Shown here piece after piece: positions 26,977 to 57,643 of a stretch of DNA of 64,000 nucleotides. Positions within the stretch are counted from its first letter, which is position 1. Each line of letters opens with the position of its first letter. The DNA lies in NCBI GenBank assembly GCA_021648125.1, contig JAKITK010000005.1:1-64000 (forward strand), in the 5' to 3' direction. The notes under the pieces were generated by a model, which was given only the letters and a program-made list of their open reading frames with translations, was not told the origin of the DNA and did not search any database. The stretch is from Lysobacterales bacterium (GTDB taxonomy: Bacteria; Pseudomonadota; Gammaproteobacteria; Xanthomonadales; SZUA-36). Made by a program: the position numbers and the translations under genes.

Positions 26977-27136
26977 CCCCAATCCCTAGACAGAAGCACG
27001 GATGCTGCACATGCTATCGATTCCACAGCAGAACAAAAAATAACCGCCGAACCTACGGGTGCGACTCATATTTTTTATTTCACTGTGAAACCTAATATGA
27101 TACACATCATATCGCGCCTCTATCTGGGGATTGGGG
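26977..27136. repeat. MITE family B, copy 1
   Basis: This 160-bp element has ends CCCCAATCCCTAGACAGA and TATCTGGGGATTGGGG, which are inverted repeats. The inner halves (CCACAGCAGAACAAAAAATA and TATTTTTTATTTCACTGTG) also pair, so the whole element folds into one long hairpin. Sister copies are at 31145 (inverted) and 55436. Confidence 0.85.
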
Positions 27137-31144: not shown

Positions 31145-31303
31145 CCCCAATCCCCAGATAGAGGCGCGATATGATGTGTATGATATTGGATTCATAGTGA
31201 AATAAAAAATATGAGTCGCACCCGTAGGTTCGGCGGTTATTTTTTGTTTTGCTGTGGAGTCAATAGCATGTGCAGCATCCGTGTTTCTATCTGGAGATTG
31301 GGG
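31145..31303. repeat. MITE family B, copy 2 (inverted)
   Basis: This 159-bp copy is in opposite orientation to copy 1: CCCCAATCCCCAGATAGAGG at the left and TTTCTATCTGGAGATTGGGG at the right. Taking one more base on each side, the element is flanked by TAA on both sides, which suggests a 3-bp target duplication. It lies 15 bp upstream of the cysS frame's possible leader and before pepQ. Confidence 0.85.
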
Positions 31304-55394: not shown

Positions 55395-55435
55395 CAAAGC
55401 GAATCCAGCGGATTAGATTCCTCCACTTACACCAC

Positions 55436-55594
55436 CCCCAATCCCCAGATAGAAACACGGATGTTGCACATGCTATTGATTCCACAGCAAAACAAAAAAT
55501 AACCGCCGAACCTACGGGTGCGACTCATATTTTTTATTTCACTGTGAAACCAATATCCTACACATCATATCGTGCCTCTATCTGGGGGTTGGAG
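55436..55594. repeat. MITE family B, copy 3
   Basis: This 159-bp copy is nearly identical in its interior to copy 1 (CCGCCGAACCTACGGGTGCG, TTTCACTGTGAAACC). Left end CCCCAATCCCCAGATAG and right end CTATCTGGGGGTTGGAG are inverted repeats. It lies between the methyltransferase gene and the ISAs1-like element. Confidence 0.85.
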
Positions 55595-55758
55595 AATACC
55601 TATCTCATATCAAAAAAGTGCAATATGTGGTGGGCGCATCACGGCTAATTTATCCTGTGATTAATTTGAATTAAAAACAATAAGATACTAGCCAATACTG
55701 AACAATCGTCCATTTTTCAGGCAATATAGTCCCATCACTTAAATTAATGAGAGACTAA

Positions 55759-56820
55759 TTGTCCAATTCATCGCTCAGGCTCGTCTTAGTCGAGCCGTCA
55801 GAAGAGACTCGGTTTCAATCACTGATGCAGGCTCATCATTACCTTGGCTCCCTGCGTAAAATTGGAAACACGCTTTGGTATGTCGCGGTTCTCAAAGACG
55901 AATGGGTGGCACTACTGAGTTTCTCGGCAGCGGCTCTGAAATGTGCTGCTCGCGATCAATGGATCGGCTGGCCGTATCGTCATCAATCCGATCGATTGAA
56001 TTTGGTGGCGAATAATTCTCGCTTTCTGATCCTTCCCGATCATCATCAAGCCAATTTGGCTTCTCAGATCTTATCCCAATGTAAACATCGCCTTCAGAAA
56101 GACCGGCAAGAAGGGTTTGGTTTTCCACTTCTTTTAATTGAAACCTTCGTTGATCCTGAACGCTATCATGGCACAATCTATCGTGCTTCTAATTGGCATT
56201 TAGTAGGGAAAACAAAAGGTTTTCGGCGAACTCGTGAAGGCTATAGCCAACGAACGAGTTCCCCAAAATTAGTTTTCGTGCAACCGCTCCAACGTAATAC
56301 GCGCAAAATACTGTCACAACCCCTCCTACATAAGCGTTATAAAACAGGAAAAACAAGAATGAAATTAACCGCCACTCAAATGTTTTCATTATTTGATTAT
56401 TTTCAGACGATTGATGATCCCAGAAGAGCACAGGGCAAAAAACATCACATGCCCGTGATCTTATCGCTCGCCGTTGCAGCCATCCTTTGCGGCATGCGGG
56501 GATATAAAGATATTTCTATATGGGTTCAATCTTTAGGACAAAAAGCGCGTAGTCGGTTTCGGTGTCGAAAAAGAAATGGGTTATATGAAGTCCCCAGTTT
56601 ATCGGTGATCCGAGCGGCTTTAATTAACATTAAACCCGCGCAACTCGATGAGGCACTTTCCCATTGGAACGCCCAATATGGACAGATTGATGAAAGCCTT
56701 GCCATTGATGGAAAAATCATGTGCGGTGCAATGGATGAAGACGGAAGACAAACCCATATCATGAGTGCTATCGGCCATCAAAGCGGTCATTGCTACACCC
56801 AAAAAAAGTCGGTAAATTAA
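55759..56820 (+). CDS. IS transposase, N-terminal frame: DruA/DUF4338 domain + first part of ISAs1 DDE
   Basis: This 353-residue frame starts with a TTG after the left inverted repeat. Residues 1-185 form a DUF4338/DruA-like domain (AHHYLGSLRKIGNTLWYVAV, RDQWIGWPYRHQSDRLNLVA, LLIETFVDPERYHGTIYRAS). A basic linker leads to the ISAs1 transposase: FDYFQTIDDPRRAQGKKHHM, ILSLAVAAILCGMRGYKDIS, and the first catalytic aspartate in SLAIDGKIMCG (D317). The frame stops soon after the heptamer AAAAAAG at 56802-56808, whose zero-frame codons are AAA AAG. Without a -1 shift the protein lacks the other two catalytic residues. Confidence 0.88.
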   Translation: MSNSSLRLVLVEPSEETRFQSLMQAHHYLGSLRKIGNTLWYVAVLKDEWVALLSFSAAALKCAARDQWIGWPYRHQSDRLNLVANNSRFLILPDHHQANLASQILSQCKHRLQKDRQEGFGFPLLLIETFVDPERYHGTIYRASNWHLVGKTKGFRRTREGYSQRTSSPKLVFVQPLQRNTRKILSQPLLHKRYKTGKTRMKLTATQMFSLFDYFQTIDDPRRAQGKKHHMPVILSLAVAAILCGMRGYKDISIWVQSLGQKARSRFRCRKRNGLYEVPSLSVIRAALINIKPAQLDEALSHWNAQYGQIDESLAIDGKIMCGAMDEDGRQTHIMSAIGHQSGHCYTQKKSVN

Positions 56821-57560
56821 AACAAAAAGGCAGCGGCAAAGAAAAACAAACCAATGAAATAAAAACAGCGGCTCCCATGCTGGATAGTATTGATATTACA
56901 GGAAGAACCATTACAGCCGATGCGTTACTCACTCAAAAAGCGTTTGCCCATTACCTAGTAAAAGAGCGCAGTGCTCATTATCATTTCACCGTAAAAGCCA
57001 ATCAAAAAAATCTCTTATCGGACATACAGTTTCATTTTCAAGATGATGAGAAAGAACCTGATTTTATTGATACGGGTACTGGAGAAAATGGTCGAATTGA
57101 GATCAGAAAAATTTGGTGCACGCGCCAACTAAACCATTACCTCAAATTTCCTTTTGTTGAGCAAGCCTTTAAGATCTATCGAGAAAGTATTTGCAAAAAA
57201 ACGGGAACCATCAGCCAAGAAACGATTTATGGGATCACCAGTAAAACAACTGAGCAGGCAACTCCCAAGCAGGTTTTAACGGACAATCGAGGACATTGGT
57301 GTATTGAAAGTTGCCATTATATAATTGATTGGAACTATGATGAAGATCGCAGTCAAATCCGAGCTGGAGCGGGGCCAGAAAATATCACTCGACTAAGACG
57401 ATTTGCTATAGGCATATTAAAAAGCAGGCAAAAAAAGGATCAAACAATCTCTGAAATGATGAAAAAACTCATGTTAAACACTCGGGCTGTCTTCGATTAT
57501 TTAAAGATGACCAAGAATTCTAATATAAGAACTCCTAAAATGGCGCTTAGCGTAAATTAG
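56790..57560 (+). CDS. IS transposase, C-terminal frame (ISAs1 DDE, -1 frame)
   Basis: This frame lies -1 relative to the N-terminal frame and overlaps it by 31 bp. Read from the slip site it continues KKVGKLKQKGSGKEKQTNEI and carries the second catalytic aspartate in GRTITADALLTQK and the glutamate in HWCIESCHYIIDWNYDEDRS. The final part NITRLRRFAIGILKSRQ is standard ISAs1. No good ribosome site precedes the ATG at 56790, so it should be made only as a fusion. The frame is otherwise intact to its stop at the right inverted repeat, which argues against long-standing decay. Confidence 0.85.
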   Translation: MLHPKKVGKLKQKGSGKEKQTNEIKTAAPMLDSIDITGRTITADALLTQKAFAHYLVKERSAHYHFTVKANQKNLLSDIQFHFQDDEKEPDFIDTGTGENGRIEIRKIWCTRQLNHYLKFPFVEQAFKIYRESICKKTGTISQETIYGITSKTTEQATPKQVLTDNRGHWCIESCHYIIDWNYDEDRSQIRAGAGPENITRLRRFAIGILKSRQKKDQTISEMMKKLMLNTRAVFDYLKMTKNSNIRTPKMALSVN

Positions 57561-57643
57561 CCGTGGTGGGCGCATACATTAGGATGATATATGAAGAAAA
57601 CTTCGTTATAATGTAAATATCATATAGCCATGAGGGTAACGCC

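Follow-up and report, generated by a model that had tools for sequence, protein, structure and literature searches.

How does an insertion sequence obtain its transposase when the catalytic residues of that enzyme are written in two reading frames? The question is posed by an element in a 64,000-nucleotide stretch of a Lysobacterales genome (GCA_021648125.1, contig JAKITK010000005.1, positions 1 to 64,000; hereafter the window). A first-pass annotation had described a complete insertion sequence whose transposase begins with a DUF4338/DruA domain, and had offered two readings of the frame break, a regulated two-product element or a very recent one-base change in a run of A. Comparing relatives of the element, we argue that this is an ISAs1-type transposon whose transposase is very probably made through a programmed -1 ribosomal frameshift at A_AAA_AAG. 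To our knowledge, DruA has until now been known mainly from an anti-phage defence system.

An ISAs1-type element in two frames

The reading of the sequence at 55630-57575 bears out a complete element with 13-bp perfect ends and a 10-bp duplication. It measures 1,926 bp (55640-57565), its terminal inverted repeats read CACGGCTAATTTA and TAAATTAGCCGTG, and the exact target duplication, GTGGGCGCAT, stands at 55630-55639 and 57566-57575, in keeping with the 8-10 bp duplications of the ISAs1 family. Its features are as follows.

55630-55639 (unstranded): left target-site duplication GTGGGCGCAT, exact 10-bp repeat of 57566-57575
55640-55652 (+): left terminal inverted repeat CACGGCTAATTTA, from sequence reading
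55759-56820 (+): ORF1, TTG start, 353 aa, with DruA, the ISAs1 N-terminal domain and the first catalytic Asp
55759-56313 (+): DruA (PF14236) domain, predicted Mom-like GNAT fold, residues ~1-185, from Pfam and the fold model
56062-56064 (+): codon of the invariant Ser102 of the DruA domain, from alignments
56395-56667 (+): DDE_Tnp_1-associated domain, residues 213-303, from Pfam
56707-56709 (+): codon of the first catalytic Asp (IDGK, residue 317), invariant in alignment A1
56802-56808 (+): slippery heptamer A_AAA_AAG in -1 phase, from the sequence and relatives
56808-57560 (+): -1 frame part of ORF2, ISAs1 DDE domain; the ORF opens at TTG 56790
56919-56921 and 57306-57308 (+): second Asp (TADALL) and Glu (HWCIES), both in ORF2
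57553-57565 (-): right terminal inverted repeat, from sequence reading
57566-57575 (unstranded): right target-site duplication GTGGGCGCAT, exact repeat of the left copy

The DDE residues are indeed divided as the annotation had it, the first Asp lying in ORF1 and the second Asp and the Glu in ORF2. The N-terminal part of the transposase is DUF4338/DruA (PF14236 at ORF1 residues 5-155, E 1.1e-25), followed by DDE_Tnp_1_assoc at residues 213-303; ORF2 matches DDE_Tnp_1 and by itself scores 117.9 bits against the NCBIfam ISAs1 transposase model NF033564 (cut-off 70). ORF1 terminates 3 codons beyond the slip site in the window copy, and the element ends 5 bp past the ORF2 stop. The A run comprises seven A (56801-56807) followed by G, and the zero-frame codons CAA AAA AAG confirm that A_AAA_AAG is in the exact phase for a -1 shift.

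With the ISAs1 family the element shares NF033564, DDE_Tnp_1_assoc, the DGK...D...E triad and the 10-bp target duplication. It differs in length (~1.9 kb, as against little more than a single transposase ORF), in its additional N-terminal Mom-like/DruA domain, and in a transposase spread over two frames where a single ORF is usual, if not defining, for the family.

The window genome carries one full copy and, on another contig, an internally deleted DruA-ISAs1 remnant (L009, G000:C19:15822-16723) that is ~60% identical to the window element. No empty site was found for the window copy; same-genus genomes have its right flank, not its left. Just upstream of the element, at 55435-55592, lies a dispersed repeat of ~157 bp, present more than 15 times in the genome (for example near window positions 26977-27134 and 31147-31303) and also in same-genus genomes; it forms one long imperfect, MITE-like hairpin (-54.5 kcal/mol).

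The split is conserved among diverged relatives

One simple explanation is that the window gene is a broken single-frame transposase, the product of a recent one-base deletion in a run of eight A or of an assembly error. Runs of A are prone to indels, and all 10 DruA-less ISAs1 transposases in our tree are single-frame, as expected if ISAs1 elements usually have a single ORF; the DNA around these 10 contains no DruA match. Imagine, then, that the break were recent: most homologues should have one continuous frame with six or eight A.

They do not. Scanning ~85,000 species genomes with ORF1 yielded 44 loci, the relatives being mostly 51-76% identical to the window ORF1. In all full-length members of the lineage the match runs in the ORF1 frame up to query residue 349-350 and from there in the -1 frame, and no lineage member is continuous. 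The codon at which the frame breaks is identical in all 17 copies analysed, which come from independent genomes and assemblies, and their hosts span several classes: going by record titles, gamma-, beta- and alphaproteobacteria, Desulfuromonadales, and one short archaeon-binned contig that is possibly a binning error. CAA AAA AAG occurs in the window and in L004/L015, L012-L014, L017-L023, L025, L037, L043, L060 and L082, while the alphaproteobacterial L024 (GC3 0.94) has CAA AAA AAA, that is A_AAA_AAA in a run of eight A. The pair CAA-AAA is present in 17/17, for which the copies' own codon usage gives a joint probability of ~10^-12.4, a figure that ignores common descent; most pairs show saturation at synonymous sites (pS ~0.8). 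The sole copy with six A, L016, is decayed and has an upstream stop. Two copies counted for the slip site are partly decayed, L082 by one extra base in ORF2 and L017, which is also in the trees, by an internal stop. In 11 of the 17 the ORF1 stop codon follows the site at a distance of 5 codons.

Selection and mobility also argue against a recent break. dN/dS is below ~0.3 for DruA, the transposase N-terminus and ORF2 alike, pointing to purifying selection on each, and hence on both frames. Exact 10-bp duplications flank five further loci (L020, L037, L043, L059, L060), the ends across the lineage are similar to CACGGC-AATT-GTTCTA, and the complete genome G307 holds three copies, 98-100% identical, two of them with both frames intact. 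Because split copies carry exact 10-bp duplications, we take it that the two-frame form moves and is the mobile form of the element.

Comparison of the 17 copies thus refutes a recent indel or assembly error, to which we attach next to no probability. Of the two original readings the regulated two-product element stands, upheld by 17 diverged copies that keep the heptamer and both frames, and the recent one-base change falls with the same split in diverged relatives. What is kept is the arrangement of a programmed -1 element, a phased X_XXY_YYZ between overlapping frames. Nor is DruA a separate gene in these homologues; the domain lies within ORF1 in all lineage copies.

How the two frames are joined

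That recoding of some kind takes place is close to certain. The transposase is apparently obtainable only through a one-base backward slip at a conserved spot, and in this lineage, on the evidence of phase and codon conservation, the slip is probably a ribosomal -1 shift. In E. coli, A_AAA_AAG is much more shift-prone than the other heptamers compared (PMC5009743).

Stimulators, which are common at such sites although not obligatory, were not found: the stretch downstream shows no conserved fold (alifold -0.46 kcal/mol, mean z +0.23), nor did we notice a Shine-Dalgarno-like element; therefore frameshift efficiency may be low. A downstream stem-loop or pseudoknot was considered on account of CGG...CCG pairs beside the site and rejected, since these can be explained by Gly-x-Leu-Pro codons and both alifold and z-scores are flat.

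Under ribosomal frameshifting, most ribosomes would make the ORF1 product, a non-catalytic protein comprising the Mom-like (DruA) GNAT and the transposase N-terminal domain. A minority would slip one base back on the tandem Lys codons and make the full 600-residue DruA-transposase, predicted to be the only product uniting the DDE triad. The ORF1 product, being in excess, might regulate or target transposition by analogy with OrfA in IS3. Elements of the IS3/IS1 OrfA/OrfAB type share with ours a non-catalytic upstream product, a -1 overlap, A_AAA_AAG and a fusion transposase; they belong to an unrelated family, however, and the window element differs in that its upstream ORF carries a GNAT domain as well as the first Asp of the triad, and in that no stimulatory structure was found at its site. 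A review names IS1, IS3, IS5 and IS630 as users, not ISAs1 (PMC5009743).

Alternatively, ORF2 might be an independent gene, translated from its own start by coupled re-initiation, with the two polypeptides complementing each other. The window ORF2 does have a TTG 12 nt before the site, and DruA genes beside IS66-type and ISKra4-like transposases (see below) are separate, overlapping or abutting. However, in 10 of the 17 copies ORF2 lacks any start codon between the upstream stop and the heptamer, the DDE triad would be spread over two chains, and the codon-level conservation of CAA AAA AAG would be left unexplained. An independent start, not being conserved among copies, was rejected, and we consider the two-gene arrangement very unlikely.

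A sister set is recoded at other sites

Not all DruA-ISAs1 elements are split at the A run. The more distant relatives L056 and L057 (on Thiodictyon plasmids) and the verrucomicrobial L027 are continuous there; their frame change comes farther on, past the second Asp but ahead of the Glu, immediately before the D-GHGR-E-R motif, while another DruA-ISAs1 element, L061 (595 aa), has a continuous frame throughout. The two Thiodictyon copies are those found in plasmid records; among viral contigs there were no relatives of the window ORF1 and, with the Thiodictyon query, one decayed element, and the sole match in phage records was a weak one to the transposase domain.

Searching 236 genomes from L027's class added further members of this sister set, with open frames of ~437-536 residues. 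Their frame changes differ in site and direction: +1 at T(2-5)C(5-6) runs (L027, L056, L190, L191, L192, L197), +1 at T9 (L193) and T7 (L196), -1 at C5-6T4 (L195, L199, L200, L217) and -1 at A9 (L198). In G860 four 100%-identical copies of 1,904-1,906 bp (L224-L227), one of which begins at a contig end, lie at different sites and are all split; no target duplications are visible. Because L196 (+1) nests within the -1 branch of the tree, the direction of recoding has switched within the set.

Mixed slip direction points to transcriptional realignment (PMC3711429), and in the Roseiflexus IS630 element a T5C5 run with a 5' adjacent hairpin undergoes transcriptional slippage with loss of one C (PMC5009743). 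The sister set resembles that element in its T(2-5)C(5-6) sites, its +1 direction and a strong hairpin 0-4 nt upstream: in each of the six T-C members the run is preceded, at a distance of 0-4 nt, by a hairpin of -8 to -14 kcal/mol (combined P 0.001 for the +1 set versus 0.99 for the window lineage, in a post hoc comparison made after the Roseiflexus precedent). Family and position differ, and the likeness concerns the sister set rather than the window lineage. A general test of folding in the 40 nt before the sister-set sites gave no significant result. On the strength of the mixed direction and the T5C5 hairpin precedent, transcriptional slippage is the likely mechanism in the sister set.

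Might RNA polymerase realignment at the seven A also restore the frame in the window lineage? Such slippage is common among transposases, the sister set appears to use it, and A7 could in principle permit it. Against this, every copy of the window lineage is -1 in direction, the run has only seven A (eight in one copy) when unaided transcriptional slippage is reported for longer runs, the exact ribosomal phase X_XXY_YYZ is kept, and no hairpin lies upstream of these sites. We regard transcriptional slippage in this lineage as improbable and retain ribosomal frameshifting as its mechanism.

The window lineage forms one clade (100/100) in the transposase-part tree, where DruA-bearing elements lie on one side of a branch (100/99), the exception being the DruA-less L068, a long branch that falls inside the DruA side with weak support. 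In the DruA-part tree the ISAs1-type domains likewise form one clade (100/98), so that the simplest reading is a single gain of DruA by ISAs1 elements. Since both the window lineage and the sister set would yield the same kind of bulk product, the comparison suggests that selection keeps an excess of non-catalytic DruA protein.

The DruA domain resembles phage Mu Mom

What might such an excess do? From profiles, motif alignment and a structural model we infer a Mom-like GNAT in the DruA domain of these transposons. DUF4338 is classed as a GNAT in a published analysis (PMC10853773), and an AlphaFold2 prediction for ORF1, middling in confidence (pLDDT 70, pTM 0.49), has its strands and helices in GNAT order across residues 1-185. 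Its best solved match is 8bv8, with Foldseek (rank 1, E 7.5e-7) and with VIA-align (rank 1, Z 12.9, rmsd 3.6 over 169 residues, a small margin over the next GNATs at 12.0); among viral models a phage Mom ranks second. The structure 8bv8 is that of phage Mu Mom, an adenine-modifying methylcarbamoylase.

At the level of sequence, the Mom link comes from Pfam, where ORF1 scores just under the Mom cut-off (E 1.1e-5, 25.6 bits against 27.1) and 10 of 15 relatives match at E<0.01, and from PHROG 1384, 'Mom-like DNA modification protein' (E 2.6e-7). hhalign of the single Mom sequence against the DruA profile gave a probability of only 3%, with a sensible alignment, and a PDB sequence search with the DruA profile returned nothing significant. 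In the alignment with Mu Mom H27-Y28, N99, S102, F130, D132, G138, Y141, A143 and G150 coincide, and the Ser that is changed to Ala in the 'inactive' 8bv8 (Mom NSESR) aligns with S102. The two proteins would thus share the fold, this serine and the HY and F-D...G..Y.ASN[FW]...G motifs; the window domain differs in being fused to a transposase, is ~14% identical, and has a putative activity predicted from sequence and model.

Five residues, Ser102, Glu128, Arg88, Gly138 and Lys170, do not vary in any of 43 transposon DruAs, which come from several families of transposon. With the Mom motifs common to both, a Mom-like catalytic activity may be present. The domain may instead be a DNA-binding or structural module devoid of enzymatic role, a possible reading that is compatible with frameshifting: position 102 is Gly in 5/5 Druantia DruAs, which lack the Mom serine and still serve defence, so that the fold can work without it. 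The five residues invariant across transposon families and the Mom motifs speak against that reading. If the domain is Mom-like in activity, it would modify DNA bases, perhaps shielding element DNA; otherwise it might bind element DNA. By analogy with Mom and the transposing phage Mu, the excess ORF1 protein could then act as a DNA-modifying, element-protecting factor.

DruA in other transposons and in Druantia

The tie between DruA and transposition that the first-pass annotation proposed turns out to be much wider than this element, while its identification of the domain with the Druantia namesake holds less well, the transposon DruAs forming a distinct branch. DruA is fused in one ORF to an IS4-like (L139) and to Tn5-like transposases (L143, L146, and by similarity L066 and L125), and to the continuous ISAs1 transposase of L061. 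DruA also occurs as a separate gene that overlaps or abuts a transposase gene: IS66 TnpC in L174 and L177, where stop and start codons overlap as GTGA/ATGA, a Tn5-like transposase in L188, and in L187 an ORF whose ISKra4-like label is our reading and not a profile match. The DruA gene of L175 overlaps the end of an ORF of 450 aa that looks like a transposase.

Across 274 gammaproteobacterial genomes we found 25 DruA places, of which five match the whole model, in ORFs of ~400 aa, and are Druantia-type; the remainder are mostly fragments or belong to the transposon type. In the tree the five full-length Druantia-type DruAs stand apart in a distant clade of their own (100/100), and the window ORF1 matches no PADLOC DruA model whereas two Druantia-type DruAs tested do; for both reasons we regard the transposon branch as distinct. 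PF14236 and R65, D66, G70, Y141, G150 and G154 are common to both branches, and the Druantia proteins are longer (~400 aa) and have Gly for Ser. Judged from the ORF list, there is no large, helicase-sized DruE-like partner within ~4 kb on either side of the window element, unlike in the Druantia system. At L180 and L182-L184 a full-length Druantia-type DruA stands beside an ORF of ~395-424 aa and a gene for a HerA-like ATPase; this may be a DruA-HerA arrangement and not classical Druantia.

Implications

Transposases with recoding, ISAs1 elements, DruA and Mom have each been described before; for their combination we found no report in the literature searched. In the open-access literature searched, no paper linked DruA/DUF4338 to transposases, and none linked ISAs1 to programmed frameshifting or recoding.

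More speculatively, a Mom-like, DNA-modifying enzyme may be a recurrent accessory of bacterial DDE transposons (ISAs1, IS4, Tn5, IS66, ISKra4-like), made in excess via recoding or coupling, that marks or shields transposon DNA, with the Druantia DruA a serine-less cousin recruited for defence. On this tentative account, DruA-ISAs1 elements would have retained the need for recoding through several replacements of its site, its direction and its mechanism, be that ribosomal or transcriptional.

For DruA, a protein of a defence system, our results would supply a biochemical hypothesis, Mom-like DNA base modification involving Ser102, and an evolutionary setting among transposons. The ISAs1 group would join the transposons with programmed recoding, and its DruA-bearing members may offer a natural series that keeps the two-product design through changes of recoding mechanism.
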